The notes under the pieces: generated by a model
The model's input: the letters and a program-made list of their open reading frames with translations, nothing else
Databases searched by the model: none
Told to the model about the DNA's origin: nothing
Shown here: positions 1 through 33,953 of the stretch, in pieces
Layout of the letters: each line of letters begins with the position of its first letter
Position numbering within the stretch: position 1 is the first letter of the stretch
Program-made: the position numbers and the translations under genes
Assembly: GCA_017526985.1 (NCBI GenBank)
Contig: JAFXQR010000134.1
Span: 1 to 49,122 of the forward strand
Direction of reading: 5' to 3'
Length of the DNA stretch: 49,122 nt
From: Lachnospiraceae bacterium
Lineage (GTDB): Bacteria; Bacillota; Clostridia; Lachnospirales; Lachnospiraceae

Positions 1-85
1 AGGTTCTGTCAAGGATGGCGGACGGTCTTTAAATTCTACAGTTAAAGTTATATCTCTATGAATTTTCCAATGTGCTTGCAAGACT

Positions 86-128
86 AAATTCCACTCTGTT
101 TTTGCTCAAAGCAAAGTGGAATTTACTT
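86..128 (+). terminator. hairpin, possible terminator for a gene left of the window
   Basis: Perfect 10-bp arms (AAATTCCACT at 86-95, AGTGGAATTT at 115-124) enclose a 19-nt loop with a smaller TTTGC/GCAAA stem. A short T-run follows on the plus strand. Positions 1-161 hold no gene that I can support. Confidence 0.45.
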
Positions 129-161
129 TTTCACTTCAGCCCACTGGGGCAGTTCACATAA

Positions 162-863
162 TTATGCATGGTAGTATTCCCAGCTATATTCATCTCCGTA
201 TTTTTGATAGAACAGACTGCATGTGAACGGGGTGCGTTTTGCAAATTGCCGGATCGCCTTTTCCAGATCATAGGCCACAAGCTCACTCTTCTTCCAAAGC
301 ACTTTGCACATCCATTTTTCGATCTCGGTCTGCATCTTCGGATCGCACGCGTTCAGTCGGACGATTTTTACACTTCTGCCTCCGGCATTGGGTTGCATCT
401 GCTTATTTGCAATATTCAGTTCATACTGATGCCCCCAGTACGGACTCACGATATGCTCAATGATCGCATCTTTGCAGTAGAGCACTTCCGCAGAAGAAGC
501 CTTCTGTGAGAAACGCCCTCCGTCACAATAGGTTCCGGGCCCTTTCTCGTATCGGACCCCCTTATCCCTAAGAAACCGGAGCAGATTGCAGCGATACTCG
601 CCTTTTTCATTTCTCTGAAACGCAATACTCAGCTCCTGTATGCCTTCGTCCGTGTCGATCAGCAGCTTCGACCCGAGATTGCAAATAATCTCTTCTTCGT
701 ATATAGTAACGATCGCTTTTGCCGCTTCTGCTTCCCAGGCAAAAGATCTGGGGATAAATATGTTCGCATTTGTATAAAGAAGCGGATATAAATCTACCAT
801 ATTTCCATACTTCATTTCGTTCTTCTTCTCCATAATATTGCGTGTTTTTTCATTTTGTTTCAT
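162..863 (-). CDS. hypothetical protein (233 aa)
   Basis: I do not recognise the family. The frame is open further upstream to 1064, but the ATG at 863 is the better start because GAGGAA lies a few bases before it. The upstream extension would also run through a terminator-like hairpin at 951-987. The product is soluble, has several Cys and Trp residues, no signal peptide and no membrane segment. It ends with an aromatic tail (EYSWEYYHA). It is the last gene of the minus-strand accessory cluster that includes the GIY-YIG-like gene, and is probably weakly co-transcribed through the hairpin or read from its own promoter. No function can be assigned. Confidence 0.6.
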   Translation of the reverse strand: MKQNEKTRNIMEKKNEMKYGNMVDLYPLLYTNANIFIPRSFAWEAEAAKAIVTIYEEEIICNLGSKLLIDTDEGIQELSIAFQRNEKGEYRCNLLRFLRDKGVRYEKGPGTYCDGGRFSQKASSAEVLYCKDAIIEHIVSPYWGHQYELNIANKQMQPNAGGRSVKIVRLNACDPKMQTEIEKWMCKVLWKKSELVAYDLEKAIRQFAKRTPFTCSLFYQKYGDEYSWEYYHA

Positions 864-950
864 GTTGTCTTCCTCTAAAATATGTTTCCTAACGATTCCT
901 GATTGCCCGGAGCGCTTACTGCGTGAGATTTCAAGTTTCCTTGTTATACA

Positions 951-987
951 AAACCCCCGGGGGAAGGTCTTGCGCCTTCCACCCGGG
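951..987 (-). terminator. intrinsic terminator after the GIY-YIG-like gene
   Basis: Read on the minus strand, CCCGGGTGGAAGG, a 7-nt loop and CCTTCCCCCGGG form a strong GC stem followed by GGGTTTTG. It begins eight bases past the stop codon of the upstream gene. It separates that gene from the 233-aa gene. Confidence 0.55.
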
Positions 988-994
988 ACATATT

Positions 995-1771
995 TCACGC
1001 GAGCGCGTGGCTCAGAACCCGGATGAGATACTTCCGCATACATCCTCTGCTGCCTTCCGGACATCCGAGCCCGGTATCCACGACCTTCTTTACATCCCTG
1101 TACTCTTCCTCAGTCCAGTATTCCATCTCCTGACGGAGTTTCTCAGCGATCGCCTCGTTTTCCTCTTTCGGTTGTGCACACGCTTTCCAATCCGGCCGGA
1201 AGCTCTTATCCAGGGTGCGATCGATCAGGCGCTCTCCTTCTTCGATCTCGATCCCTTTCTCCTTAAGAGCATTCAGGAACGCTTTACGACGCGTCCCCTT
1301 GAACGGTACGATACAGAGGTCGATACCATCATAATCGGAATCGTACTTCTTGTACGGCCCGTACTGCAGATACGGCTTTTTCGTCAAGATCGTGGTGGTC
1401 TCCAACTGCTTGCGATCCTCCTTCTTTTCTGCCTCTCCGACGATCTCCAGGCAGAACTTCATCTTGCCGTCCAGGAGATCCTTCTTTCTTACCCCGGTGT
1501 AGTAGGTCGTATAGGTTCCCAGCCAGTGACGCAGATGCTCTTTTAAGCGGTCCGCGATCGATCTGTCGTGGTCATCGTCCGCTCCGGCTTCTCCTGCGTA
1601 CATCGGGATCAAAATGTTCTTATCCGTCAACTCCACCGACACCAGATACGCACCTTTCTTGTGACCGTACTTCGAGGTGAGGATGTGATTTTTATCCGTC
1701 ACGGTCTGATTTACCAGTTCCTCATTCTGTTTGAACCATTCGTTTACATAATCAAAAGTACTCATTTTCAT
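995..1771 (-). CDS. GIY-YIG-like domain protein (258 aa)
   Basis: The N-terminal third carries the layout of a GIY-YIG nuclease domain: GAYLVSVE at about residues 40-47, MYAGEAG at about 57-63, then RLKEHLRHW with the conserved Arg and His at about 74-82. The C-terminal half is rich in Glu and Lys and is not recognised. GIY-YIG domains cut DNA or, in some families, only bind it; activity here is inference. The start at 1771 (or 1765) follows a GGAGGT ribosome site. The gene lies 12 bases after a 52-codon gene, so the two form one unit driven by the palindromic element at 2052-2083. The domain is more divergent than the short YhbQ-type protein encoded at 46887. Confidence 0.6.
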   Translation of the reverse strand: MKMSTFDYVNEWFKQNEELVNQTVTDKNHILTSKYGHKKGAYLVSVELTDKNILIPMYAGEAGADDDHDRSIADRLKEHLRHWLGTYTTYYTGVRKKDLLDGKMKFCLEIVGEAEKKEDRKQLETTTILTKKPYLQYGPYKKYDSDYDGIDLCIVPFKGTRRKAFLNALKEKGIEIEEGERLIDRTLDKSFRPDWKACAQPKEENEAIAEKLRQEMEYWTEEEYRDVKKVVDTGLGCPEGSRGCMRKYLIRVLSHALA

Positions 1772-1783
1772 TACCTCCGTTTC

Positions 1784-1942
1784 TTAATCATTAAACATAT
1801 TATCCAGTTCCTCTTCGATCTCTTCTTCCGATTCTGCGTTCGGAAAGAAACCGCTCATCACATCCTCCCAGATCTGTTCTTCAGATTCTGTGATGTCTTC
1901 TTCTGTTTCTAATACTTCTTCCGTGATACGATTTCCGTTCAC
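1784..1942 (-). CDS. small acidic protein (52 aa), GTG start
   Basis: The open frame extends up to 2089, but a near-perfect ribosome site (AAAGGAGG) sits seven bases before a GTG at 1942, which gives a 52-residue product. Roughly two fifths of the residues are Glu or Asp, with a Trp in the middle and an acidic end (EELDNMFND). Such a composition would suit a DNA-mimic or a binding partner of a basic protein, but that is only a guess. It is the first gene of the unit that also carries the GIY-YIG-like gene. It has a leader of about 110 bases after the conserved palindrome/-10 element. Confidence 0.55.
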   Translation of the reverse strand: MNGNRITEEVLETEEDITESEEQIWEDVMSGFFPNAESEEEIEEELDNMFND

Positions 1943-2051
1943 TGTTGTATCCTCCTTTCTTTTGATATTCAGGATCTTTTTTAAATCTCCTGTTGTTTTT
2001 CGGTAAACAAAAAAGATCTGCCGAAGCAAATCTTTTCCGCTCATCTGTATT

Positions 2052-2083
2052 ATGTAATTTGGGATATTCAAAATTCTGAAGAT
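2052..2083 (-). promoter_or_regulatory. composite palindrome / -10 element, copy A
   Basis: Minus-strand reading: ATCTTCAGAATTTTGAATAT (2083-2064), six bases, then TTACAT (2057-2052). The palindrome has 7-base half sites separated by 6 bases. Palindrome, spacing and hexamer match copies B and C. It precedes the 52-aa and GIY-YIG-like genes. Confidence 0.6.
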
Positions 2084-2143
2084 TGACAAAAATTTCGCAT
2101 TTTTACGCGATTTTTCTCCTGATCTGTTCCGAACACTTCATGT

Positions 2144-3814
2144 TCAGGAGTAGATATCCTGCATCTTCTTTAATTCTTCCCGGATCTTTTCACGAACTTT
2201 TCTGTCCAGAATCTCAACTTTAGCACCTTGTTGCATCGCCCAGTGAACAAGCATCTCCGGAGAAGTCTTTACCATAACGATGTCGTATTGCACCATGCGT
2301 CCTTTCTCATTCTTTTCCATGCGGCTTTCTACTTTTTTATAATGATCCCCAAAAGCATCATGTAATACCGTATAATCCGTAGATAAGATCTTGATCCGGA
2401 TGTCTTGCGGTTTATCATAACCCATCGATAAGTGTTCCGACATATATTTCTCCGGGTCCCATTCCGTATTCGAGATTGGTAATCCTTCAAAAGCGGTGAT
2501 CTCGATCGGTATGATCATTCCGTCTTCGTCCCGGATCAGCTCGATCTCCGTCATCAGGTCGATACGATAATGCCAGACTCTTTTGTCTCCCTGCTTCTTT
2601 CCGATACAATAATACTGATCCTGATATACCACGATATGATACGGACTCAGCGTGTGAATATACTGACTGGTCGGTGTCAACTCATGATCTTCCGTATAAC
2701 GGTTAAAGCGAAACCGGACCTGCGCAAACTTATTGATCGCATCCTGCAGGATCTTCAGCTTTTCTGCAAAGCCCTTTCGATCTTCCATACTTCTTGTAGA
2801 AAATCTGCCGTGGATCGCCGACGGATGGAAGCGCAGATCACGCCCGTTCATATACGGCGTTCTATAATAAATACTTGCGGTTTTGAGCAATTTGCGAATG
2901 AGCGTTGTTTTCTCTTCTTTCGAAAACATATCCGAAAAACTCACCACCTGGATCAATTTATCCAGTGTTTCACGATCAAAATCGTGAACATACTGCAATC
3001 CATTGATGACCGGAGCTGTATCCACTTTATTCGGATTCTCTTTTTTCATATTAACGCGATTATTCAGATCATTCTCTTCATATTTCTTATACTTGATCTT
3101 GTAATCCTCGTCATTTTCCTGCGTATGTATTTCGGGATTCAGCTCCAGGAGCATCTCACCCATGGTTTTATTGAAAACATTATAGGATTCGATATTCGTT
3201 GCATTTTGATATTTTGCTTTCCGGTATAATGACAACAACGCTTTCAGCTGATTACAGGTCAGACTGTGTTCTTCGTCTGTCATCATCTTTAAGACATCCA
3301 TGATCTGAAGAACAGTCCGTTCCGTCGCATAGCTACCAAGATCGCTGCAACTTTTGATCGATAATGCGTCACCCGTATGCTGCGCCAATGCTCCGGATAA
3401 CATTGCTTCATAATCCTGCAAGTCCTTCTCATCGTCACTCTTCGGAGCTATCTTGGTTACCTTTACATTGATCGGCTTCTTTTTATATCCTGCCGAATTG
3501 AATTCAAAATCCAGCTGTGTAGATATTGCACCATCAATCCACTTACCTGCATAAGTTGTGAACTTTGCTTTTCCTGTTCCGCTATACTTCGGTATCGCCT
3601 GCATAAAACCGATAAAACCTGCCGATGCCAATTCTGCGATCAATGCTTCCCGGTTTTCCACCGCATATCCCCGGATCCTTCTTTTTGCACAATAGCGGAC
3701 AAACTCCCGAACATCCGGCTGCAGTTCCTCCCAGATCTTCTGGTCACCTTTTTTAATGGATTCGATGTTTTCATTGATCCGTTCTACAATCTGTTTATAC
3801 TGTTCCTGTGCCAT
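2144..3814 (-). CDS. sigma-region-2-like / WYL-domain transcriptional regulator (556 aa)
   Basis: Three parts can be read. Residues about 25-105 resemble sigma-70 region 2 (SAGFIGFMQAIPKYSG then FTTYAGKWIDGAI), the part of sigma factors that binds core RNA polymerase and the -10 element. Residues about 165-235 look like the degenerate winged-helix segment common in clostridial WYL proteins (MMTDEEHSLTCNQLKALL). Residues about 385-555 form a WYL domain (SPYHIVVYQDQYYCIG, RVWHYRID) with a C-terminal WCX-like extension. WYL domains commonly sense nucleic-acid or nucleotide ligands and control defence or repair genes. Usual WYL regulators start with a DeoR-type HTH, so a sigma-like N-terminus is unusual. 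AAGGAGG precedes the ATG at 3814. Copy B of the shared palindrome lies 32 bases upstream, which suggests self-control. No sigma region 4 was seen. Confidence 0.75.
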   Translation of the reverse strand: MAQEQYKQIVERINENIESIKKGDQKIWEELQPDVREFVRYCAKRRIRGYAVENREALIAELASAGFIGFMQAIPKYSGTGKAKFTTYAGKWIDGAISTQLDFEFNSAGYKKKPINVKVTKIAPKSDDEKDLQDYEAMLSGALAQHTGDALSIKSCSDLGSYATERTVLQIMDVLKMMTDEEHSLTCNQLKALLSLYRKAKYQNATNIESYNVFNKTMGEMLLELNPEIHTQENDEDYKIKYKKYEENDLNNRVNMKKENPNKVDTAPVINGLQYVHDFDRETLDKLIQVVSFSDMFSKEEKTTLIRKLLKTASIYYRTPYMNGRDLRFHPSAIHGRFSTRSMEDRKGFAEKLKILQDAINKFAQVRFRFNRYTEDHELTPTSQYIHTLSPYHIVVYQDQYYCIGKKQGDKRVWHYRIDLMTEIELIRDEDGMIIPIEITAFEGLPISNTEWDPEKYMSEHLSMGYDKPQDIRIKILSTDYTVLHDAFGDHYKKVESRMEKNEKGRMVQYDIVMVKTSPEMLVHWAMQQGAKVEILDRKVREKIREELKKMQDIYS

Positions 3815-3845
3815 GTGCTATCCTCCTTATGCTTTTTCTAATGTT

Positions 3846-3877
3846 ATGATAAAGAGTATCTTCAGGATTTTGAAGAT
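3846..3877 (-). promoter_or_regulatory. composite palindrome / -10 element, copy B
   Basis: Minus-strand reading: ATCTTCAAAATCCTGAAGAT (3877-3858) with perfect 7-bp arms, six bases, then TATCAT (3851-3846). The hexamer ends 32 bases before the ATG of the sigma/WYL regulator. Confidence 0.65.
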
Positions 3878-3878
3878 T

Positions 3879-4061
3879 TCAGAAAATTATGCTGGTAGTT
3901 CCCGGCTCAGTTGTCCTTCTCCACTCAGACCTGCTTTCATCCTGCATCGCCGCCATTGCCACCACGGAATATGCCCCTGAAGCCTCTAATGCCGGTGGAT
4001 CTTCCAATTCTTCTACATTTTTGCTCACTACTTCTGCTTCTACTTTCTTTTGAAATAACAT
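3879..4061 (-). CDS. small unknown protein (60 aa) between two shared regulatory elements
   Basis: This frame starts 21 bases after the -10-like hexamer of copy C and ends one base before the palindrome of copy B, so it fills one complete transcription unit. That placement is the main reason to think it is real. The ribosome site is weak (AAAGAAG). The N-terminal half is charged (KKVEAEVVSKNVEELE). The middle is small and hydrophobic (GAYSVVAMAAMQ) and the end is polar, finishing in TSIIF. The two-part layout recalls leader/core peptides, but no RiPP-modifying enzyme lies next to it. It could instead be a regulator ligand or a non-functional frame. Confidence 0.4.
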   Translation of the reverse strand: MLFQKKVEAEVVSKNVEELEDPPALEASGAYSVVAMAAMQDESRSEWRRTTEPGTTSIIF

Positions 4062-4081
4062 AATCGTTTTCTTCTTTTACT

Positions 4082-4113
4082 ATGTTACAGAGAATCTTCA
4101 AAATTTTGAAGGT
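4082..4113 (-). promoter_or_regulatory. composite palindrome / -10 element, copy C
   Basis: Minus-strand reading: ACCTTCAAAATTTTGAAGAT (4113-4094), six bases, then TAACAT (4087-4082). Spacing is identical to copies A and B. It lies between the end of the PD-(D/E)XK-like gene and the 60-aa frame. Confidence 0.65.
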
Positions 4114-4129
4114 TTCAATTCTTTGACTC

Positions 4130-5038
4130 CTATAGAAATTGTTCTGCTGTGTTAGTTCCACACCAATTGATACTTGCAAGATTATATTTCAAACGATGCC
4201 ATTCCTTTAAAATATTAGGATTTTCAAAGACCCTTTGAACAATATCTTTCATGGATAACTTTTCGTTGATAATATAGTTATATATATCTGTAATGTTTCC
4301 AATATCGATACATATAACGTCCTTTTGTTTATTAAACTCATTATATATTATACATTTTCTTTCCCACTTTTGTTTTTGTTTTTTATTGTTTAATTCTTTT
4401 GTTTCCTTTTTTTCTTTCTTTGATGAATTTATTTCTTTTTCTATATTTTCTATTTCAGTATTATATTTATTAATCTGTTTTACAATATTCACCTTTTTTG
4501 TGGTTTTGATTTCAAGATAATGCCAATGAAAACCATTTGTATATAATACTTTTCCATACCATAACAATTCTCCTACAACTTGTTCAAAATCCCCTATGGT
4601 CTTTATATCCCCCTCTTTTGTCTTTATATAATTAATAACTTTTTCATCTGTATCTATATATTTATTTACTTCTATGCGTTTATCATTTTTTGTTTTTTCT
4701 TTTATGTCTATCCATTTCTTAATTTCTACACATCCATGTAATTTTTTTAGTTGTTCATTTCTATTAAACCCCTCCGGCATTTTTTTATCATAAATATTTC
4801 CATATAAAGGAAATGAATTATTTTCATCTAAAATTGCAAGATCTGGAAATGATACATATCCGTATAGCATGTCTTTTCTTATGCCCTTACTGCCTGATTT
4901 ATGCACATCCCTCACAGATAAATGTCTCACATTATCGTTTTCCCGCAAAAGCATATTGATCAACGGATACAGTTCCTCCTCCTGGCCATACTGTCTGCTC
5001 ATCAATACCAATTCTCTCATATATTCTTCCAGTGTCAT
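4130..5038 (-). CDS. PD-(D/E)XK-like nuclease-fold protein, very AT-rich (302 aa)
   Basis: A possible PD-(D/E)XK signature can be read: P65-D66 in SFPDLAIL, then E105-I-K107 in GCVEIKKW, followed by GELLWYGKVLYTNGFHWHYLE, which resembles the helix and strand after the core in restriction-endonuclease-like proteins. Residues about 185-228 form a Lys/Glu-rich coiled coil. The start at 5038 has GGAG nine bases upstream. Most of the gene is far richer in A and T, and in homopolymer runs, than its neighbours, a sign of recent transfer. The first residues (MTLEEYM) recur in the remnant at 7619-7831, so an ancestral copy once existed there too. Nuclease activity is inferred, not shown. Confidence 0.55.
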   Translation of the reverse strand: MTLEEYMRELVLMSRQYGQEEELYPLINMLLRENDNVRHLSVRDVHKSGSKGIRKDMLYGYVSFPDLAILDENNSFPLYGNIYDKKMPEGFNRNEQLKKLHGCVEIKKWIDIKEKTKNDKRIEVNKYIDTDEKVINYIKTKEGDIKTIGDFEQVVGELLWYGKVLYTNGFHWHYLEIKTTKKVNIVKQINKYNTEIENIEKEINSSKKEKKETKELNNKKQKQKWERKCIIYNEFNKQKDVICIDIGNITDIYNYIINEKLSMKDIVQRVFENPNILKEWHRLKYNLASINWCGTNTAEQFL

Positions 5039-5591
5039 TATCTATATCTCCATCTTCTTTTGATTATCCGCGGTTTTCTTTACAGAATCCCCATTTCCTG
5101 CAGTTGTCTGATCGTATCCTCAGCACTCACATGCAGGATCCCCGTACCGCCATATTCTCTCCAGGACGCGATATTTCCCGGATGATCATCTATCAGGATC
5201 CAGTCTTTTCCTTTACAGAAGTTTTTCTTCTCTTCCCGATAAACGATATTCACTACTAAATCTTTAGATAGTAAGCGGTGTGCCCAGGCGGTTTTATCTT
5301 CACCGGAGGTTAAAATCCCGCGTTTCGGTTTGGGTATTCCGGTCAGGATCTCGCAACGATCCCCATATTTTTCATAGAGCTTTTGAAACATCTCCAAGGC
5401 ACCGTCCATCGGTTCCAGCTTATCATAGAAATGCTCTACTTCCCGGATCCGCATCCACATCTTATTATCCTCTTCCTCGGATCTCTTTCCGCCCTGCGGG
5501 AGTGGCTGCATCCCGCAGAATTCCAAGACCCCTCGGTCAAAATCCGCCAGCACACCATCCATATCAAAATATATCTTCTTGATCATATGAT
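5006..5591. repeat. segmental duplication, copy 1 (partner at 7800-8385)
   Basis: From the MTLEEYM start codons through the whole HAD gene to its ribosome site, this stretch matches 7800-8385 at nearly every base. Outside these limits the similarity stops or continues only in pieces. Confidence 0.85.
5080..5586 (-). CDS. HAD-superfamily 5'-nucleotidase-like protein, copy 1
   Basis: A 168-residue HAD hydrolase of the deoxyribonucleotidase (NT5C-like) size. Motif I is FDMDGVLADF with nucleophile D8 and acid/base D10. T82 in LTGIP is motif II. A Lys near 125-127 and D133-D134 in LIDDHPGN complete the active site. The family dephosphorylates nucleotides or related phosphates; the substrate is not known here. 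GGAGGG precedes the ATG at 5586. All motifs are intact. A second complete copy lies at 7874 and a fragment at 9746, so this gene belongs to a duplicated block. Its upstream partner, a metallophosphoesterase, is deleted in this copy. Confidence 0.85.
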   Translation of the reverse strand: MIKKIYFDMDGVLADFDRGVLEFCGMQPLPQGGKRSEEEDNKMWMRIREVEHFYDKLEPMDGALEMFQKLYEKYGDRCEILTGIPKPKRGILTSGEDKTAWAHRLLSKDLVVNIVYREEKKNFCKGKDWILIDDHPGNIASWREYGGTGILHVSAEDTIRQLQEMGIL

Positions 5592-5626
5592 TTCCCTCCT
5601 GCGTTTTATAAGATCACTTCCATCAT

Positions 5627-5876
5627 TTAATCCGCGTACTCCCAGGAGCCATCCACAGTATCCACAATGACAAAGCGTTCGTCTCCGATCGGTCGGCCAT
5701 CCGGATAGGTTGAAAATGTATCCAAGGTCAGCAGATTCCCTTGTTGCAAAGGTTCGGATACCGGAGTATGACCTACCACCTGAAATAACTCGCTATGAAA
5801 CAGTTCCATTCCGGAATGCGCATCCTGCGGCCTGGCCCAGATCGGAGAAATGTCACTCCACAGCTCGTCGGAACCT
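5627..5876 (-). pseudogene. metallophosphoesterase remnant (C-terminal third)
   Basis: The sequence matches the last 80 or so residues of the complete phosphoesterase at 9867-10574, including the GHTP metal motif. Everything upstream is missing: the sequence jumps from the codons of SDELW directly to the intergenic palindrome that precedes the intact gene. The junction sits at a short CC microhomology. An apparent ATG at 5890 lies inside the palindrome and is unlikely to be a real start. Without the DVH, GDLVD and GNHD motifs the product could not bind its metals. Confidence 0.85.
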
Positions 5877-5880
5877 CCAA

Positions 5881-5938
5881 GTAACCACAAAGACGGTTCT
5901 TGGCAGGTTTCCGGCCAGAGAACCGTCCCTATGGTTAC
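5881..5938. repeat. palindromic repeat family R1, copy 1
   Basis: GTAACCA...TGGTTAC ends enclose GACGGTTC and GAACCGTC arms. It is nearly identical to 10590-10648 and shares its core (GAGAACCGTCCCT) with 13681-13735. It includes the stop codon of the adjacent gene remnant. Confidence 0.8.
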
Positions 5939-6188
5939 TCCTGCATTTGTTTTAATAATGTATCCAGCTCTTGTGCATGATAGTCCTCATCCTTTGCATT
6001 TCGAGAGCTATCGTAGAACAGTGCAATCATCTGATTTTGGCGCGGTCGGCAAACAATGCATTTCGTATTTCCCTGTGTCCAGATTCGGGGTAGTATCTGC
6101 CCTTCTATATTTGCCATCAGACTATCTACATTGCCATATTGGATCAGTTGTTCAAACAGATCATAAGATTCCAATTCCAAATCTCTTT
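5935..6188 (-). pseudogene. truncated copy of the 112-aa hypothetical gene
   Basis: The sequence is nearly identical to residues 29-112 of the intact gene at 10645-10983, but similarity stops at about 6188. An in-frame TAA stands immediately upstream, so the first 28 or so codons are lost. An internal ATG at 6180 without a clear ribosome site is the only start left. It is most likely a non-functional remnant of the duplicated block. Confidence 0.75.
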
Positions 6189-6194
6189 ATAATA

Positions 6195-6401
6195 TTAAGT
6201 TCCATTATAAACCCTCCGTATCAATAATAGTTCTCTTGTCTCTCCACCTCTCGAGACATCAAAAATACTGTCTCCACATGGCTTGGGACAACAGGAATTA
6301 TAACTATACCTGTGTTTTGCCCCTTTCGGTTTTCGAGAACAAGTCAACGCATTTTTTACACAATTTCGGTTGTATGCGGAACCGTCTATACTCCAAATCA
6401 T
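6195..6401 (-). other. doubtful Cys-rich open frame (68 aa)
   Basis: The frame begins at an ATG with AGGA six bases before it and lies 26 bases after the stop of the 337-aa gene. The product has six Cys, two as CC and CPKPC-like groups, but matches nothing I know. It may be chance sequence in the rearranged junction between the truncated gene and the 337-aa gene. Confidence 0.2.
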
Positions 6402-6427
6402 CTTTTATCCTTGTTCTTCCAAAATAC

Positions 6428-7441
6428 TCATAACCTTGATACCATGGCAGCTTTAAATAATTGAAACAGATCCCGCCATGAGCACCAGGAATCAGAGAAA
6501 GCTATGGACTTCCAATCATCTTCTGCCTTTTCCCAAATTCGGATCAATCCCCGAAGCTCGGAATCTTGCTCGGAATAACTATCAAAGCCGTTATCAAACA
6601 TTGTAATTTTATATGTTGTGGTTTCAAGGTCGTTTATGTTTTTGTCTCTGTCATTCTCAAACAACTCCGGATTACTCTTTAACGTGATCCAATAATACTC
6701 TACGCATTTATCACCGGGATCCTCCAACAGGTTCAGATCAGGAATGTCCGTTATTCTTTTATGGTATTCTTTTGGTTCCTTGCCTTCAAATACGGTTCGG
6801 AAAAACTCGATTTCTTCTGCGATTTTTCCATCATATAGTAATGAAATGATCAAACACTTAACTGCATTACAGTTTTTCCGATTAAATGCTTCTATTTCAT
6901 TCATACCGTCATAAATCCCATCATCAACTTCCGTTTTCATGGGATTAAAAGATGCGAACCAGTCTCTTTGAATGGCGACATTATAAAGATTGAGGATTTC
7001 CTCATTTGGTCCCAGATGCGCTATAAATGACAGAGTCTTTTTACGCCTCTCTTCACTCATTTTCTCAAGTATCGATTTGGGAAATTCCGAGTTGCGCCCT
7101 GTATCTTTAAGCCAAAGTGTTTCGGATACCCTGAAATTGGGGACATCTATATCAAACTTATTGTACTGAACTATTTTATAAGCACAGATCAAATCAAGTG
7201 CGCGATTGTTTTCATCAGTTTGTTCAAATGCATTTTTTAACAATCGATCAATTACATCTTTTCTCTCATCCTTGGTATATAAAGGGCTTATGCCAACCTG
7301 ATAAATTTTATATAAATAACGACATCGGAGATCATATCCCTTCTCAACATCTTCATTCATAAATCTCAAATATTGATTAAATCTTTCTTCACAAGAAATG
7401 TTATAATGACTCACTTTGTTTTCTGCAATTCTCTTTTCCAT
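6428..7441 (-). CDS. hypothetical protein (337 aa), member of a locally duplicated family
   Basis: I do not recognise the family. The protein is soluble, mostly helical in appearance and acidic, without signal peptide or membrane segment. It contains many aromatic residues (CRYLYKIYQVGISPLY near the N-terminus, DWKSIAFSDSWCSWRDLF at the end). No catalytic motif is evident. A fragment of a close relative (about 60 codons, matching residues about 130-190 here) lies at 8390-8588, just upstream of the second HAD gene. The family was therefore part of the block that was duplicated. The start has no strong ribosome site; the ATG at 7441 is the only convenient one. Confidence 0.65.
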   Translation of the reverse strand: MEKRIAENKVSHYNISCEERFNQYLRFMNEDVEKGYDLRCRYLYKIYQVGISPLYTKDERKDVIDRLLKNAFEQTDENNRALDLICAYKIVQYNKFDIDVPNFRVSETLWLKDTGRNSEFPKSILEKMSEERRKKTLSFIAHLGPNEEILNLYNVAIQRDWFASFNPMKTEVDDGIYDGMNEIEAFNRKNCNAVKCLIISLLYDGKIAEEIEFFRTVFEGKEPKEYHKRITDIPDLNLLEDPGDKCVEYYWITLKSNPELFENDRDKNINDLETTTYKITMFDNGFDSYSEQDSELRGLIRIWEKAEDDWKSIAFSDSWCSWRDLFQLFKAAMVSRL

Positions 7442-7445
7442 TTTC

Positions 7446-7607
7446 AGGTATCTCCCTTAATCCTATGATAATCCTCCATGTCCTCATCCAGAGTAATCGT
7501 TGCCTGCCGGGTGTTGCTCATTCGCTGTAAAAGGGCGACGCATTCCACATGTTCGGATTTACAGAACAGAACCACATCATAGCCTATATCGTAGTAATTT
7601 CTGAGTT
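7446..7607 (-). pseudogene. gene-end fragment, possibly an rRNA m5U-methyltransferase tail
   Basis: One frame without its own start reads YDVVLFCKSEHVECVALLQR and then about 25 more residues ending KGDT and TGA. The HVECV-LL string recalls the C-terminal HVE(C/T)VVLL segment of 23S rRNA (uracil-5)-methyltransferases of the RlmD/RlmCD type. The identification is weak, and the catalytic part is absent. It is one more broken piece in this rearranged block. Confidence 0.3.
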
Positions 7608-7618
7608 AACACACTAAC

Positions 7619-7831
7619 CTAACCCAAACTTCCCACACCAATAAGGTATGCTGAATCTTGAATTTTCTCAAAACATAGGATTGGCTCTCTCCTTAAGAAA
7701 TGCAACGGCACAAAAGAAAAAGGCGTACCGACTATTTTTCTTCTTCGATATAGTCTTGGCAATGTATTTTTAGGTCGCAATAAATATATACAGCAACGAA
7801 CCGGTTCTTTCATATATTCTTCCAGAGTCAT
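7619..7831 (-). pseudogene. remnant beginning like the PD-(D/E)XK-like gene
   Basis: The first seven codons (MTLEEYM) and their upstream sequence match the start of the gene at 5038, because both belong to the segmental duplication. After about ten codons the sequences part and the rest is unrelated and unrecognised. The original gene seems to have been cut off here by deletion or insertion. Confidence 0.55.
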
Positions 7832-8385
7832 TTCCTTTATCTCCTCTTCTTTGATAATCCACAGATGATTTCTTTACAGAATCTCCATTTCCTGCAGTTG
7901 TCTGATCGTATCCTCAGCACTCACATGCAGGATCCCCGTACCGCCATATTCTCTCCAGGACGCGATATTTCCCGGATGATCATCAATCAGGATCCAGTCT
8001 TTTCCTTTACAGAAGTTTTTCTTCTCTTCCCGATAAACGATATTCACTACCAAATCTTTGGATAGTAAGCGATGCGCCCAGGCAGTCTTGTCTTCTCCGG
8101 AAGTCAGGATCCCGCGCTTCGGTTTTGGTATTCCGGTCAGGATCTCGCAACGATCCCCGTATTTTTCATAAAGCTTTTGAAACATCTCCAAGGCACCGGG
8201 CATCGGTTCCAGCTTATCATAGAAATGCTCTACTTCCCGGATCTTCTCCCACATCTTATTATCCTCTTCCTCGGATCTCTTTCCGCCCTGCGGGAGTGGC
8301 TGCATCCCGCAGAATTCCACGACCCCTCGGTCAAAATCCGCCAGCACACCATCCATATCAAAATAAATTCTCTCGATCATAAGGT
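7800..8385. repeat. segmental duplication, copy 2 (partner at 5006-5591)
   Basis: Direct repeat of 5006-5591 in the same orientation, containing the second HAD gene. Differences are scattered single bases. Confidence 0.85.
7874..8380 (-). CDS. HAD-superfamily 5'-nucleotidase-like protein, copy 2
   Basis: 168 residues, almost identical to copy 1, with the same DMDGVLADF, LTGIP and LIDDHPGN motifs. The few changes (for example E4 for K4 and P61 for D61) are scattered and leave the active site intact, so both copies are probably functional or only recently redundant. GGGAGGGAAACC precedes the ATG at 8380. Immediately upstream lies a fragment of the 337-aa family; downstream is the MTLEEYM remnant. 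The substrate is unknown, and a nucleotide monophosphate is the family's usual target. Confidence 0.85.
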   Translation of the reverse strand: MIERIYFDMDGVLADFDRGVVEFCGMQPLPQGGKRSEEEDNKMWEKIREVEHFYDKLEPMPGALEMFQKLYEKYGDRCEILTGIPKPKRGILTSGEDKTAWAHRLLSKDLVVNIVYREEKKNFCKGKDWILIDDHPGNIASWREYGGTGILHVSAEDTIRQLQEMEIL

Positions 8386-8389
8386 TTCC

Positions 8390-8588
8390 CTCCCGTTCAT
8401 TTCCTCAAACAGACCATCATTCACTTCGGTTTTCATTGGATTAAAATCTGCAAACCAGTCCCTTTGAATAGCAACATTATACAAGTCGAGAATTTCTTCA
8501 TTTGGGCCAGGATGCTCCAAAAATTGCATAGTCCTTTTTCTCTGCCGCTCACTCATTCTTTCGAAGCACTTTATCTTTGGGCCCGTGA
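8390..8588 (-). pseudogene. fragment of a second 337-aa-family gene
   Basis: On the minus strand this reads FERMSERQRKRT..., GPNEEILDLYNVAIQRDWF, ADFNPMKTEVNDGLFEEMN. It aligns without gaps with residues about 130-190 of the protein at 6428-7441. Both ends are cut: one at the HAD ribosome site, the other near the Fic gene. Confidence 0.8.
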
Positions 8589-8630
8589 AAGCGATACTAT
8601 GGTCTCGACATCATTTCCCTGGGGTAAAAT

Positions 8631-9680
8631 TTATATTTCCGTATTTCTCATATACCTGGCATCTTTATAGGTTCCGATCTTTTTGATCTTTTTGTCCTTC
8701 AGCATCTTCCCGAGAACCAATTCAACTGTTTTTACGCTGACATCCGGAAGTTTTGCAATAATATCCTGCTTTGATACCGGTACGATTGCCCCCATCAAAA
8801 TATTTTCAACTCTCTCGGACTTCTTTGCCTTTTTCAGAGATATATCCGTAAATGATTCATCAAGATCCTTGAAACACTTATAGAGAACCTGCAGGAAATT
8901 CACGATAAACGGAACATAATTGTTTTCATTCTCATGCCATTTATCAGATGACACCCTAAGTGCTTCATAATAACTGTCTTTATGCTTGTTGATCTGTCCT
9001 TCATAAGATATATATCTTACAATGTCATAACCGGACTTATACAGTAGCAGAACCGTCAGCAATCTTGAAATTCTGCCATTCCCATCCATAAAAGGATGAA
9101 TACATAAGAAATCCAGAACAAAACATGGAATAAGTAAAAGCGGTGAAATCTCATAATCCTGTCTTGCATCATAGTATGCCAAAAGAAGCTGTTCCATCTC
9201 ATTGTTCACTTTTTCGGCAGAAACAGGCTTAAATCTAACATGCCTGCTCCCGTCCGGTTCGATTTCCATGATAAAGTTATCATTCGTTTTAAAATATCCG
9301 GCTTCTCGCGAATTTGTCTGTGACAAAAGCATCCTATGAAAAGAAAGAATCATTTCCTCTTTAACATCAAGATTTGCTTGTTCTGTATGTATCAGATTAA
9401 GTGCATCCTTATACCCCGATATTTCCATTTCATCATGTGTCACCGGAGTTGCACCTTCCACAATATCCTTTATTCTTGCATCTGTGGTAATGATTCCCTC
9501 AATGGCATTACTGCCTTTAACAGATTCAACAATTGCCTTATGGCGCAAAATTTCAAATGTTTCACTGTATTGAAGCTTACGAAACTCTTCTTTTGACTTA
9601 AGATCCGATATGATATCTGTCAATCCGACTATATTGCCGGGAACAGATTTTTTCAGAAATGAATAATCATACCTGTGCAT
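8631..9680 (-). CDS. Fic-domain protein with N-terminal inhibitory motif (349 aa)
   Basis: The Fic catalytic signature HPFMDGNGRISR starts at H195 and is complete. It transfers AMP or another nucleotide moiety to hydroxyl groups of target proteins. An inhibitory helix motif S57-NAI-E61-G62 lies N-terminal to it, as in class II Fic proteins that hold themselves inactive. Residues about 285-345 look like a winged helix (VSKQDIIAKLPDVSVKTVELVLGKML), typical of this Fic subfamily. GGAGGAAATGAT precedes the ATG at 9680. The gene interrupts the duplicated HAD/phosphoesterase block: a HAD fragment lies on one side and a 337-aa-family fragment on the other. Its promoter is embedded in a perfect palindrome, so autorepression through the winged helix is likely. 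No separate antitoxin gene is seen, as expected for a self-inhibited type. Confidence 0.9.
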   Translation of the reverse strand: MHRYDYSFLKKSVPGNIVGLTDIISDLKSKEEFRKLQYSETFEILRHKAIVESVKGSNAIEGIITTDARIKDIVEGATPVTHDEMEISGYKDALNLIHTEQANLDVKEEMILSFHRMLLSQTNSREAGYFKTNDNFIMEIEPDGSRHVRFKPVSAEKVNNEMEQLLLAYYDARQDYEISPLLLIPCFVLDFLCIHPFMDGNGRISRLLTVLLLYKSGYDIVRYISYEGQINKHKDSYYEALRVSSDKWHENENNYVPFIVNFLQVLYKCFKDLDESFTDISLKKAKKSERVENILMGAIVPVSKQDIIAKLPDVSVKTVELVLGKMLKDKKIKKIGTYKDARYMRNTEI

Positions 9681-9700
9681 ATCATTTCCTCCAAAGCAAA

Positions 9701-9742
9701 ATTTACTACCTAAAGAATATCATTTTTTAGGTAGTAAATCAA
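9701..9742 (-). promoter_or_regulatory. fic promoter inside a palindromic operator
   Basis: ATTTACTACCTAAA (9701-9714) and TTTAGGTAGTAAAT (9726-9739) are perfect 14-bp arms with an 11-bp spacer. On the minus strand TTGATT (9742-9737), 17 bases and TATTCT (9719-9714) form a promoter. The arms cover the -35 edge and the -10, so binding there would block RNA polymerase. Confidence 0.75.
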
Positions 9743-9745
9743 TCT

Positions 9746-9863
9746 TTAATCTTCCACAGGACAGATCATCTGAAGATCAAATGGTTCTTCTTCAGCAATT
9801 TCTTTTATTGGATTACTTGCCAGTTTATCGTAGAAATGCTCTACTTCGCGAATCCGCTCCCAT
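9746..9863 (-). pseudogene. HAD nucleotidase fragment, copy 3
   Basis: The minus strand reads WERIREVEHFYDKL, the same segment as residues 44-57 of the HAD genes. It then continues into unrelated codons ending PVED and TAA. The piece sits directly before the phosphoesterase gene, so HAD-phosphoesterase was probably the ancestral order. Confidence 0.75.
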
Positions 9864-9866
9864 CAT

Positions 9867-10574
9867 TTAATCTGCGTACTCCCAGGAGCCATCCGCAGTA
9901 TCCACAATGACAAAGCGTTCGTCTCCGATCGGTCGGCCATCCGGATAGGTTGAAAATGTATCCAAGGTCAGCAGATTTCCTTGTTGCAAAGGTTCGGATA
10001 CCGGAGTATGACCTACCACCTGAAATAACTCGCTATGAAACAGTTCCATTCCGGAATGCGCATCCTGCGGCCTGGCCCAGATCGGAGAGATATCACTCCA
10101 CAGTTCGTCGGAACCCATCTCATTGATCTCCGCTATGGCCTCGTCCATATCCATGTATGGATCGGATAAGTACTCCGTGACATATTCCTCCAGTATCCCT
10201 GCATGTGAGAATACTGTCTGATCGATCCTGTGAGCAAATGCGATCCGTTCCGGACTTACGCAGTTTTCTAATCGGTTCAGTCCGTTAAGCACCGTGTTTC
10301 GTGCCTTATTCGAATACCCGGACTCCTGCATTTCCCATTTATAACTCACATCATGATTACCGTAGCAAAACAGGGCATCATGATCCTTCATGAATTTTGC
10401 TGCTTCCTCCAGAGTTTTCTTATACAGTTCAAGGTTGCTTTCCTGATACCAGTCATCTACCAGGTCACCTAATAAAACAACCTTATCGCAGGATATCGTT
10501 TTCAGGAGATTCCGCGCTTCTTCAAACATCCAGTGTTTTAAATGAACATCCGGGATCACAAATACCTTTGCCAT
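9867..10574 (-). CDS. calcineurin-like metallophosphoesterase (235 aa)
   Basis: All metal-binding motifs of the calcineurin-like fold are present in order: PDVHLKH near residue 9, GDLVDDW near 40, GNHD near 73, SHAG near 123 and GHTP near 190. The family hydrolyses phosphomonoesters or diesters using two metal ions. The size and motifs recall bis(5'-nucleosyl)-tetraphosphatase/PrpE-like enzymes, but the substrate is not certain. I choose the ATG at 10574, with GGAGGAGG upstream; the ATG at 10589 would lie before that ribosome site. Upstream is palindrome R1 copy 2, then a 112-aa gene and a NUDIX gene, a likely nucleotide-phosphate cluster. A deleted duplicate lies at 5627-5876. Confidence 0.85.
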   Translation of the reverse strand: MAKVFVIPDVHLKHWMFEEARNLLKTISCDKVVLLGDLVDDWYQESNLELYKKTLEEAAKFMKDHDALFCYGNHDVSYKWEMQESGYSNKARNTVLNGLNRLENCVSPERIAFAHRIDQTVFSHAGILEEYVTEYLSDPYMDMDEAIAEINEMGSDELWSDISPIWARPQDAHSGMELFHSELFQVVGHTPVSEPLQQGNLLTLDTFSTYPDGRPIGDERFVIVDTADGSWEYAD

Positions 10575-10589
10575 GTCTGCCTCCTCCAA

Positions 10590-10648
10590 GTAACCACAGA
10601 GACGGTTCCCTGACAGGTTTCCGGCCAGAGAACCGTCCCTATGGTTAC
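10590..10648. repeat. palindromic repeat family R1, copy 2
   Basis: Ends GTAACCA and TGGTTAC, arms GACGGTTC/GAACCGTC around a GGTTTCCGGCCAGA centre. It fills the gap between the 112-aa gene and the phosphoesterase and includes the stop codon of the former. Confidence 0.8.
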
Positions 10649-10983
10649 TCCTGCATTTGTTTTAATAATGTATCCAGCTCTTGTGCATGATAATACTCAT
10701 CTTTTGCATTTCGAGTGCTGTCGTAAAACAGCGCAATCATCTGGTTTGGGCGCGGTCGGCAAACAATGCATTTCGTATTTCCCTGTGTCCAGATTCGGGG
10801 TAGTATCTGCCCTTCTATATTTGCCATCAGACTATCTACACTGCCATATTGGATCAGTTGTTCAAACAGGTCATAGGATTCCAATTTTATATCTCTTTTC
10901 ATAATATCAAAAGACTTTTCCTGCAGATCCGCTTTGACAGCTATGGCAATATCATTCTTTTCCATAAACTCATCAAGATTCAT
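10645..10983 (-). CDS. hypothetical protein (112 aa)
   Basis: I do not recognise the family. The product is a small soluble protein with an acidic, Gln-rich C-terminus (HAQELDTLLKQMQE) and a middle segment (ILPRIWTQGNTKCIVCRPR) that looks like beta strands. Its ATG at 10983 overlaps the NUDIX stop by four bases, so the two are translationally coupled. The stop codon lies inside repeat R1. A truncated duplicate is at 5935-6188, with a few substitutions such as R/Q and T/S, which shows that the copy is older than a simple assembly artefact. Confidence 0.65.
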   Translation of the reverse strand: MNLDEFMEKNDIAIAVKADLQEKSFDIMKRDIKLESYDLFEQLIQYGSVDSLMANIEGQILPRIWTQGNTKCIVCRPRPNQMIALFYDSTRNAKDEYYHAQELDTLLKQMQE

Positions 10984-11528
10984 TCGGCCACCTCCTCTTG
11001 ATACAGACCGGGACCCCTGGCCTTTATTCGTTCTATAAGCTCTTTGTACCTGTCATTATGCGATTTGATCGCCAGGTCCGATTCTACATATTCCAGGAAC
11101 CCACGCTCATCTACCCACTTATAATCTACGGTCTCACCTTCCTGAAGAATGACGGAATCCTTGTCTGCATCTACGATCGCAAGGAATGAATAGAACATAC
11201 TGTAGCTCGGATTTCGGAAGATGTGACTCACCAGTTCCATTTTTATCGCCTTCAGACCGGTCTCTTCAAAAAGTTCTCTCTCGGCTGCTTCAACCGGTTC
11301 CTCGCCTGATATCGCAGAACCTCCTGCGCTGGCTTCCCAGTACCCCGGATATACATCTTTGCTCATATCCCTTTTGGTTAAAAGGAAAGTACCGTCTACA
11401 TGCTGAACAAGTATATCAACTACCATATGATAACGGCCTTCCGGGATCTGCTTGTAATTTCCAAAGCCCCGTTCCCAGGTCTCACCCGTTCTCTTTCCTT
11501 CTTTATCGTATAAATCCCAGATTTCCAT
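10980..11528 (-). CDS. NUDIX hydrolase, YfcD-like (182 aa)
   Basis: The NUDIX box G-x5-E-x7-REUxEExGU is complete: G70, E76, R84-E85, E88-E89, G91. The N-terminus EIWDLYDKEGKRTG and the TKRDMSKDVYPGYWE segment match the YfcD/isopentenyl-isomerase-like branch of the family. These enzymes cleave nucleoside-diphosphate-linked compounds; the substrate is unknown here. It heads a probable operon with the 112-aa gene (four-base overlap), the metallophosphoesterase and perhaps further genes. No GGAGG-type site is obvious at 11528; AAGGGTGTAACA precedes the ATG. Confidence 0.85.
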   Translation of the reverse strand: MEIWDLYDKEGKRTGETWERGFGNYKQIPEGRYHMVVDILVQHVDGTFLLTKRDMSKDVYPGYWEASAGGSAISGEEPVEAAERELFEETGLKAIKMELVSHIFRNPSYSMFYSFLAIVDADKDSVILQEGETVDYKWVDERGFLEYVESDLAIKSHNDRYKELIERIKARGPGLYQEEVAE

Positions 11529-11576
11529 TGTTACACCCTTTCAAGCGCTTAAACTATCCCGCCATCTCCTTGGTCG

Positions 11577-11963
11577 CTATTTTTCGATCACAATCAGCGG
11601 GATCTCGATCTCCTCCCGCGTTAATCCAGCGTGGCCGCCGGGCATCTCCTGGTGTTCATTGGGATACAGACCGCTGAGCATGGATGTGGTCGCTGCCACC
11701 GTGGTCGGCGGATAGACCGAATCCAAAGAGCCGGCCAGATGGCTGCGGAAAAATCCATCTTCTTTCAAATGCTTTTCTATGATCGACATTCCCATGGCAT
11801 CCAAAAGGAGCACCACAACATTTTTATAGTTTTTCTCCAGATAAGGATCTGCCAACGACAGTGTCTTTGCCGTCGTCCCGGCATCAAATTTTTTCAATAT
11901 GGAATTGGACAGATTCACCAGACAGTTCTCATAATCCGGCAGTTCAGACAGTTTCAGCTTCAT
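11577..11963 (-). pseudogene. alkaline-phosphatase-superfamily gene with in-frame internal deletion
   Basis: Residues about 1-105 match the start of type I phosphodiesterase/alkaline-phosphatase-like proteins: VVVLLLDAMG with a metal Asp, and VYPPTTVAATTSMLSGLYPNE with the catalytic Thr. The next residues, GGHAGLTREEIEIPLIVI, belong to the far C-terminus of the same superfamily (GH-GLT-EE---PLI). About two thirds of a normal 350-450-residue protein is therefore missing between NEH and GGHAG, yet the frame stays open. AGGGGGAGAAAGC precedes the ATG at 11963. Most of the second metal site is gone, so activity is unlikely. Confidence 0.8.
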
Positions 11964-12142
11964 GCTTTCTCCCCCTTATGTTTTTTATCATACCATAATC
12001 CATCCCCCCGGGGAAGAGTCAAGTCTTATATACGCAACAAAAGCTAACATAAATCGAATGCATATGTTTGGATTAGTTGGTGGACGATGCCATATCCGGC
12101 ATTTATAATAATGTCAAATATAGTTGCAAAGGTGGGATATGT

Positions 12143-26383: not shown

Positions 26384-26420
26384 CAAAAACAGTCCACAAC
26401 CGGAATGGCTGTGGACTGCG
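26384..26420 (-). terminator. gyrA terminator
   Basis: Minus strand CAGTCCACA, an 11-base loop and TGTGGACTG, followed by TTTTTG. It starts ten bases after the gyrA stop codon. Confidence 0.85.
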
Positions 26421-26429
26421 TTTTACGAT

Positions 26430-29045: not shown

Positions 29046-29110
29046 TAAATTTCCCTCTTTTTAGTTTCCGAATTGATTTTTATATTGATTTTTAGCACGA
29101 AATCTGTTAT

Positions 29111-29139
29111 ATTATAACATTTTTGCCGGAATTTTGCAA
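29111..29139 (-). promoter_or_regulatory. gyrA promoter
   Basis: Minus strand TTGCAA (29139-29134), 17 bases and TATAAT (29116-29111), about 66 bases before the ATG. It directly follows the hflC terminator. Confidence 0.75.
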
Positions 29140-29144
29140 ATAAA

Positions 29145-29170
29145 TAGGAAGGGATTTTTGTCCCTTCCTA
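29145..29170 (-). terminator. hflKC terminator
   Basis: Minus strand TAGGAAGGGA, six-base loop, TCCCTTCCTA, then TTTATTTG. Perfect 10-bp stem. Confidence 0.85.
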
Positions 29171-29194
29171 CAAAGATCTCTATATATATATGGC

Positions 29195-30127: not shown

Positions 30128-30141
30128 ATTCCGCACCTCCC

Positions 30142-31089: not shown

Positions 31090-31116
31090 AGCTTTATTCC
31101 TCCCTATTTTATATTT

Positions 31117-31188
31117 TTACAGGATTATATGTTCATCCTGTAATATTCTTATAGCATAAGCGGATATCCGTTACCACCAAACGGATAT
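31117..31188 (-). promoter_or_regulatory. two palindromes upstream of hflK
   Basis: First: TTACAGGAT (31117-31125) and ATCCTGTAA (31135-31143). Second: ATATCCGTT (31164-31172) and AACGGATAT (31180-31188). Both have perfect 9-bp arms. A TATAAT lies inside the first loop region on the minus strand. They may be operators or leader hairpins. Confidence 0.45.
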
Positions 31189-31258
31189 TACATTTCCGCA
31201 CATCGAGGGTGCGGTTTTTCCTATCAGTATTTACATATTTACATTTCAGATACACATT

Positions 31259-31286
31259 AAGAAAAAGCCTTACGGCTTTTTCTTTA
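31259..31286 (-). terminator. terminator of the dnaA-gyrB side gene group
   Basis: Minus strand AAGAAAAAGCC, GTAA loop, GGCTTTTTCTT. It lies 13 bases past the stop codon at 31299. Confidence 0.85.
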
Positions 31287-31298
31287 ATATCACATTGA

Positions 31299-31877: not shown

Positions 31878-31898
31878 AAGCTTTTTCACCTAATCTAT

Positions 31899-33953
<2,055 letters not shown>

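Follow-up and report, generated by a model that had tools for sequence, protein, structure and literature searches.

Transcriptional activators and sigma factors are normally separate proteins. In a Lachnospiraceae bacterium (assembly GCA_017526985.1, contig JAFXQR010000134.1; the whole stretch of 49,122 nucleotides (nt) that was analysed is hereafter called the window), a single open reading frame (ORF) on the minus strand, 3814-2144, encodes a protein of 556 amino acids (aa) in which a sigma-70 region 2 domain is joined to a WYL-type sensor body. The CapW and BrxR repressors have a body of helix-turn-helix (HTH), WYL and WCX domains and a palindromic operator near the promoter. They resemble the fusion protein in this body and in such an operator, but they are repressors and are not known to have a sigma domain. 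PafBC, to our knowledge, also has no sigma domain. It is a mycobacterial WYL activator, a heterodimer which acts by sigma adaptation with SigA and uses a motif at -26 (PMC11804915). PafBC is like the protein described here in placing a WYL sensor with an HTH at the promoter, where it replaces the usual -35 contact, and in its unusual promoter motif; it differs in being a heterodimer that works with SigA at -26, whereas the fusion protein has its own sigma region 2 and a palindrome at about -31.

The sigma factor CorE carries its own sensor domain and has no anti-sigma factor; copper is sensed through a Cys-rich C-terminal domain, and sigma 4 is kept (PMC8999054). The likeness is a sensor carried on the sigma factor itself without an anti-sigma factor; the difference is that the fusion protein lacks region 4 and continues into a WYL-type body with a putative DNA-binding segment of its own. 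The T4 protein gp55 has homology to sigma region 2, reads a -10-like element without a conserved -35 sequence and serves late transcription together with gp33 and the gp45 clamp (PMC7892883). Region 2 homology, the -10-like element and the lack of a conserved -35 are shared with gp55, which has no fused sensor or HTH regulator; the sections of PMC7892883 consulted report no palindrome for gp55 promoters, whereas the promoter-like sites described here have a palindrome conserved at about -31 and are not -10-only promoters. WYL is commonly joined to other domains, and the fusions named by Makarova et al. 2014 (PMC4012209, parts of the main text) are with Cas3, exoRNase, Mrr, HNH, helicase, DUF1814, BRCT and TerB, with no sigma-70 domain among them. 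Sigma factors with a sensor tail (CorE), factors with sigma region 2 only (gp55) and WYL proteins acting with sigma (PafBC) are already known from these accounts; a published description of the WYL-sigma combination, or of its pairing with an operator in the place of the -35 element, was not met in literature searches judged mostly on titles and abstract openings.

Domains and distribution of the fusion protein

The predicted domains of the fusion protein are listed below.

2144..3814, minus strand: sigma-region-2 / winged-helix-like / WYL-WCX fusion protein, 556 aa (ORF, Pfam, homologues)
3500..3742, minus strand: sigma-70 region 2 domain, residues about 25-105 (Pfam 44-100)
3080..3340, minus strand: winged-helix-like segment (putative fold), residues about 159-245, common to sigma-less WYL proteins
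2540..2761, minus strand: WYL domain, residues 352-425 (Pfam)
2162..2278, minus strand: WCX-like C-terminus, residues 513-551 (Pfam below cut-off; PADLOC WYL model 349-551)

A preliminary description, made from the sequence alone, had placed the ORF at this position and strand, and the peptides quoted there are found in the translation. It had read residues about 25-105 as sigma region 2, which was borne out by a profile search: Sigma70_r2 matched residues 44-100 above the Pfam cut-off (E 2.6e-6, 27.6 bits, cut-off 24), and the first 137 aa searched alone gave the same sigma assignment. Its WYL domain was likewise recovered (residues 352-425, E 4.3e-7, 30.3 bits, cut-off 21.8), whereas its WCX domain stayed below the Pfam cut-off (E 0.049, 14.4 bits, cut-off 23.9) and is supported because the PADLOC WYL model, spanning residues 349-551 (E 5.8e-18), reaches residue 551. 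No region 4 was found with Pfam in the whole protein or in pieces of it, in agreement with the same description, which had overlooked the central winged-helix-like segment. This segment (about residues 159-245) aligns with the equivalent segment of sigma-less WYL relatives, which begin at about residue 160 of the window protein and have the same winged-helix-like, WYL and WCX parts.

Ten full members of the fusion type were found: the window, L001, G335, G357, G135, G313, G685, G485, G522 and G845. A scan of genome contigs gave L001, from a Lachnospiraceae metagenome-assembled genome of sheep rumen, with a full-length protein 75 % identical to that of the window, and L002, a relative with the WYL body; none of its frames that were read contains a sigma domain, and unread bases occur upstream. 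The genomes surveyed further were non-exhaustive draws from the family, order and class. The fusion type is rare, being present in five of the 397 genomes drawn from the window's family (its own genome, G335, G357, G135 and G313); G330 had only a C-terminal WYL fragment, adjoining the same kind of gene cassettes. The 392 genomes of the order added G685, G485 and G522 (E <= 1e-12), and the 291 genomes of the class added G845 (E <= 1e-40). One fusion genome belongs to another order of the class, so the fusion is retained in two orders. Among 48 genomes of the G522 family there was no further fusion, and G638, G500 and G628 from that family, whose matches begin at the winged helix, had no sigma head when checked.

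The assembly containing the window is 92.5 % complete with 3.4 % contamination, and the fusion gene lies near a contig end. An assembly artefact was ruled out because nine more genomes hold the fusion. Viral and plasmid origins were also rejected: no relative was confirmed in viral contigs (three scans) and none was found in 50,697 phage records at E 1e-5, while two of 72,556 plasmid records gave matches to the WYL part only. A defence system was likewise rejected on the proteins given to PADLOC, which matched only the fusion protein (WYL) and a Fic protein among seven window proteins (the fusion and six neighbours), and one AAA+ protein, weakly, among three neighbours from other genomes.

Sigma70_r2 was matched in all ten fusion proteins (E 3.6e-8 to 0.0055), above cut-off in five (window, L001, G313, G685, G485), and WYL was above its Pfam cut-off in all ten. 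When the ten N-termini were compared as a profile with ten sigma factors drawn from G000 (the window's own genome), G335 and G485 (11 sigma-type loci were fetched and L178 was omitted), hhalign gave a probability of 97.7 % and E 1.7e-12 over region 2. Searched against PDB with phmmer, the window protein matched only sigma factors at E <= 1 (13 sequences), the best at E 0.05. Many NCBIfam sigma models matched it, every one under its cut-off, the best being TIGR02937 (E 1.6e-7, 31.1 bits, cut-off 42.9); with this model under its cut-off and no region 4, the protein does not have the compact region 2 plus region 4 of an extracytoplasmic function sigma factor. The best sigma profile varied by member (FliA/WhiG, SigB/F/G, SigI), with no clear nearest sigma class. 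Two columns were invariant among the fusion N-termini, the T and A of a T-Y/F-A core which we take to be part of sigma region 2.3. Between the window and L001 the ratio of nonsynonymous to synonymous substitution rates (dN/dS) was 0.09 in the sigma region (dS 1.4) and 0.10 in the WYL part, values that indicate purifying selection on region 2 in this pair.

One member differs in this part. The G522 fusion protein has 793 aa, and a stretch between its region 2 and its winged helix, ILTETEQKVLCCFFGI..GLKKIAKQLGMREIEVKLAMESGRRKL, aligns with region 4 of ten sigma factors. TIGR02937 spans regions 2 to 4 of G522 (residues 40-174, E 3.8e-8, 33.1 bits, under the cut-off of 42.9), and the Pfam region 4 model (cut-off 24.1) gave 12.6 bits for the full-length protein, 14.6 for a 214-aa part and 17.4 for the excised piece. 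Compared with PDB sequences, this region matched sigma chains at E 0.16 and above, behind two unrelated chains (0.085 and 0.097). G522 may represent the form from which region 4 was lost, if events took that order.

Promoter-like sites with a fixed spacing

Three sites in the window, all on the minus strand, consist of a 16-bp (base pair) palindrome of the CTTCAAAATTTTGAAG type followed by a CATA word.

4077..4111, minus strand: promoter-like site 1, perfect palindrome CTTCAAAATTTTGAAG (4096-4111), then CATAGTAA (4077-4084)
3841..3875, minus strand: promoter-like site 2, palindrome CTTCAAAATCCTGAAG (3860-3875), then -10-like CATAACAT (3841-3848)
2047..2081, minus strand: promoter-like site 3, palindrome CTTCAGAATTTTGAAT (2066-2081), then CATAATAC (2047-2054)

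When one mismatch was allowed, a pattern built from the three sites had no other occurrence in the same genome. With 25 sites found elsewhere the total was 28, and the element can be described as a palindrome of 14-16 bp and, 12 nt after its 14-bp core, a word like CATAATAT. If CATAAT is taken as -12 to -7, the palindrome would be centred at about -31.5, on the -35 element. The preliminary description had supposed that a -35 was missing from the target sites; no conserved -35 hexamer is indeed present there, and the palindrome occupies its place.

The spacing was examined with palindromes in whose choice the -10 word had played no part. Twenty distinct palindromes (<=2 mismatches, 11 loci) were collected, 17 of which had CATAATAT (>=7/8 letters) at gap 12, against 2 at the next best gap; 279 permuted words reached at most 2 in the same test. 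When up to three mismatches were allowed in the palindrome and one in the -10 word (12 loci), gap 12 gave 18 sites and no other gap between 6 and 19 more than one, and at a looser setting (palindrome <=4, -10 word <=2 mismatches) there were 33 matches at gap 12 and 3 to 10 at other gaps. At the level of 6/8 letters, gaps -12 and -35 were also high (23 and 15), the former lying inside the palindrome and the latter being the opposite-strand reading of the -10 word. In a table of 24 sites, four of which had been located with a pattern containing the -10 word, the letters C, A, T and A of this word were kept in 23, 24, 24 and 24 sites. TGTAAC and an A-run (AAAA) were favoured just behind it (table positions 39-50), around the presumed transcription start.

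Behind 23 of the 24 sites, within 250 nt and on the same strand, lay an ORF of 45 aa or more that has a stretch resembling a ribosome-binding site (random points 30 %); the ORF behind had at least 100 aa at 20 sites (random points in these loci 19 %) and started at about 34-63 nt at 13 (random points 8 %). At a minority of the sites (L071 5805, L066 10568 and 2314, L064 11968 and L156 4795) the -10 region is linked to the leader by long inverted repeats of about 12-20 bp, some of which are interrupted. Foldback of read-through RNA as a general feature was rejected, since the mean ribosome-binding-site pairing was 0.58, and likewise 0.58 for shuffled 5' parts, over the 25 of 28 sites that could be scored (three had no start or a start too far away).

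In the 397 genomes of the family, a decoy pattern with an 11-nt gap gave 2 sites (<=2 mismatches), and the 12-nt gap 17. Eleven of the 17 were in G000, G335, G135 and G330, the last with its WYL fragment only, and one was at a contig edge of G252, with similar downstream sequence and no fusion found; the sites of G127, G334 and G224 were inside ORFs, that of G254 lay between two opposite-strand genes, and one more was in G126. Such a site was present in four of the six genomes having a fusion or remnant and in six of the 391 others (Fisher p 3.0e-6), or, for full fusions only, in three of five and seven of 392 (p 1.1e-4), figures that are not independent, since these loci were the source of the pattern. 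When eight whole genomes were searched with the pattern, 15 of 16 sites (<=2 mismatches) lay within about 5 kb of a fusion or remnant. The 16th, on contig C194 of the window's genome, precedes, by eye, remnants of the phosphoesterase/unknown-gene cassette that adjoins the fusion in G335. In the same search G845 had zero sites of the majority operator type. The G845 sites, the site G000:C194:980-1013 and the G313 sites were found once the pattern had been fixed; a fifth G313 match (C77) looks like chance.

The palindrome differs between members. Operators of the TTCAAAATTTTGAA type occur with the window, L001, G335, G135, G685, G485, G522 and the remnant G330. G357 has CTCAAAAAAnTGAA, once TTCAACATCTTAAA, before CATATTA-type words; G313 has four TACAACATGTTAAA-type sites, one of which lies on a different contig and, by eye, precedes a HAD-like gene; and G845 has two of the TGCAAAATTTTGCA type. 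The 12-nt gap and the CATA word stay constant while these operators vary. The winged-helix segment is 32-38 % identical to that of the window in the three members with variant operators and 43-70 % in members with the majority operator, G522 excepted, which is suggestive of the winged helix being the part that reads the palindrome.

Site 2 precedes the start codon of the fusion gene by 34 nt, and L001 has the same arrangement at 33 nt, therefore the gene probably controls itself in these two loci. The L001 site equivalent to window site 3 is at 9701.

Proposed mechanism and alternative explanations

The domains, the conserved fusion, the repeated sites, their fixed spacing and the variable operators with a constant -10 word are the observations on which we base the proposal that the fusion protein is a one-component sigma factor controlled by its WYL sensor, to which we assign a probability of roughly 0.63. 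We infer core binding, dimerisation, the pairing of domains with promoter elements, positive control and the ligand. The N-terminal region 2 would bind core RNA polymerase and would read and melt the -10-like CATAAT, while the central winged helix, probably as a dimer, would bind the palindrome, whose centre lies about 31.5 bp before the presumed start, at the place where region 4 normally contacts the -35 element. Binding of a ligand to the WYL-WCX part (a nucleic acid or a nucleotide, if analogy is a guide) would switch the protein between two states, one silent and one able to use the promoter. Its targets would be the fusion gene itself, in the window and in L001, and a small set of cassette genes, mostly no more than a few kb away. 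The preliminary description had likewise suggested a ligand-controlled sigma factor that recruits core polymerase itself; that idea has gained a candidate cognate promoter and a relative with a region-4-like segment, and needs amendment in that the putative DNA-binding segment of the WYL protein is retained and that a palindrome at fixed spacing stands in for the -35. Whether such proteins deserve a separate class of initiation factor, in which a sensor-regulator replaces region 4, one polypeptide would sense, find its operator and open core polymerase, and G522 would be an intermediate, is a tentative matter that we judge close to evenly balanced.

Several observations weigh against this proposal. 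Region 4 is lacking in nine of the ten members. The winged-helix fold of the central segment is suggested by homology: in the window protein it matches no Pfam HTH model, and HTH_11/HTH_12 matches are weak and under cut-off in two sigma-less WYL relatives. Across the eight members other than the window and L001, region 2 is 19-42 % identical to that of the window and the winged-helix-like segment 26-53 %; because region 2 is the less alike of the two, identity by itself does not support the simple view of an unchanging sigma domain combined with an operator reader that varies. In G522 the operator is close to the majority type, and the winged helix is the least similar of all (26 %). No site was found within 260 nt (197 nt for G485) upstream of seven other fusion genes, or before that of G845, so that autoregulation is not general. 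The motif was derived from the same loci in which it was counted, and L152 (11-locus test) and both L152 and L174 (12-locus test) were fetched through it; part of the site counts is therefore there by construction. In the sigma-less locus L002 a different palindrome, TTCGAGAACTCGAA, lies 12 nt ahead of TATAATAT (4357), just behind the WYL gene; this may be a coincidence or an instance of the same geometry with no sigma fused. Finally, window positions 3874-3846, at site 2, fit a weak sigma-70 pair, TTCAAA-17-TATCAT; a sigma-70 scan of window 1-12000 gave 30 matches, one of them on site 2, and 29 in shuffles.

Two alternatives would leave transcription to SigA, and both appear unlikely. By the first, the WYL protein on the palindrome would act by sigma adaptation: SigA would stay in the holoenzyme, and the sigma-2-like domain would help by reading the -10 or by touching the clamp. 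PafBC, which likewise belongs to the WYL proteins, works in this way, placing itself between promoter DNA and domain 4 of SigA and recognising a motif at -26 (PMC11804915). As nine members have no region 4, SigA could supply it. However, PafBC-type proteins have, as far as we know, no sigma region 2, whereas one is present here; two such domains should not occupy the clamp helices at once; and C is the first letter of the -10 word at 23 of 24 sites, unlike in TATAAT. Adaptation as in PafBC is possible if the sigma-2 domain leaves SigA in place. We consider it about equally improbable that the protein is a repressor, as CapW and BrxR are, which would bind a palindrome situated over a SigA promoter and keep both the fusion gene and the cassettes off until the ligand is present, the sigma domain being vestigial or of other use. 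WYL repressors typically have palindromic operators that overlap promoters, the weak SigA-like pair overlapped by one window site would fit, and region 2 is the less conserved part across members. Yet its dN/dS of 0.09, compared with 0.10 for WYL, and its retention in two orders do not suggest a vestige, and 14 sigma-less WYL loci (12 places, two fetched twice; 95,380 bases) gave only five weak matches to the element, all in L072 (4+2 mismatches). At the positions of the 24 sites where a SigA -10 would be expected, given its usual distance from the palindrome, the bases do not show the conservation of CATA, and a repressor operator on a SigA promoter fails to explain the conserved CATA.

CATA-type -10 words are typical of promoters of the sporulation factors SigE and SigK, to which the element might belong, with the WYL protein merely a co-regulator. 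This is the least probable reading: the SigE model was above cut-off in only three of nine tested genomes (G685, G485, G522; the SigK model was not searched separately), and in the site-bearing G000, G335, G357, G135, G313 and G330 its best match was at most 72.5 bits (cut-off 348.6). A recombination or mobility site of the gene cassettes, rather than a promoter, would suit loci that are cassette-like, with duplicated and truncated genes, and the long inverted repeats at some sites, but is very improbable given the fixed orientation and spacing, the resemblance of the word to a -10 and the same-strand ORF with a ribosome-binding-site-like stretch that follows nearly every tabulated site (23 of 24, against 30 % of random points).

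Neighbouring genes and candidate regulon

The genes around the sites in the window, and the family most often met behind sites elsewhere, are as follows.

1784..1942, minus strand: small, very acidic putative ORF behind site 3, 52 aa with 20 D/E and 1 K/R; a similar ORF lies behind the equivalent site of L001
995..1771, minus strand: 258-aa gene next behind site 3, no Pfam or NCBIfam match
3879..4061, minus strand: 60-aa ORF that separates site 1 from site 2, without a ribosome-binding-site-like stretch and perhaps not a gene
4130..5038, minus strand: 302-aa gene upstream, homologue at the same place in L001, sub-cut-off Pfam match only
L063 15262-16089: 276-aa family, frequent neighbour behind sites, start like MxNMMKxYLG, no Pfam or NCBIfam match

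Directly behind sites are the fusion gene itself and the acidic ORF followed by the 258-aa gene, each in both the window and L001. The start of the 258-aa gene (VNEWF..HILTSKYGHKKGAYLVSV) resembles, by eye, that of L001 10094-10864 (VNEWY..HILTSEYGHKKGTYLVSV). One might speculate that the acidic 52-aa product is an anti-sigma or DNA-mimic feedback protein. In other genomes the sites directly precede an NT5C-type nucleotidase, assigned by Pfam in G335 and by similarity in G135, calcineurin-type phosphoesterases, assigned by Pfam in G335 and by resemblance in G522 and G330, the 276-aa family (G335, G357, G135 and G313 by phmmer, G330 by eye) and, among others, a GNAT protein in G485. Relatives of the 276-aa family were found in L064, L065 and L066 by phmmer and in L071 and L174 by eye; several of the cassette-gene families have no Pfam or NCBIfam match. 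Our guess is that the regulon serves nucleotide or phosphoester processing after stress.

Blocks of the window are duplicated (5080-5586 and 7874-8380; 5627-6227 and 9867-10983), with nucleotidase-like, truncated and full phosphoesterase genes and a small ORF, which are signs of rapid cassette turnover. L071 (G330:C10) has a WYL C-terminal fragment at 4760-5089, yet its sites at 5805 and 6629 still precede cassette genes; they may be targets outliving their regulator, or be served by another protein. Window 8634-9680 encodes the Fic-domain protein (Pfam Fic 1.3e-14; PADLOC SoFic 5.4e-36), and at about 26400-45500 the translations read, by eye, as a putative origin-type cluster (gyrA, gyrB, recF, dnaN, dnaA, rnpA, yidC, mnmE, parA).

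If the proposed mechanism is true, the fusion protein would show how an operator-binding sensor can replace region 4, and it would be a minimal ligand-gated transcription switch needing neither SigA nor an anti-sigma factor. It would also explain a promoter type (palindrome, 12 nt, CATAATAT) that is not picked out by a standard sigma-70 scan. The cassette genes, which encode a nucleotidase, phosphoesterases and members of unknown families, would then be a likely WYL-controlled regulon in gut Clostridia.

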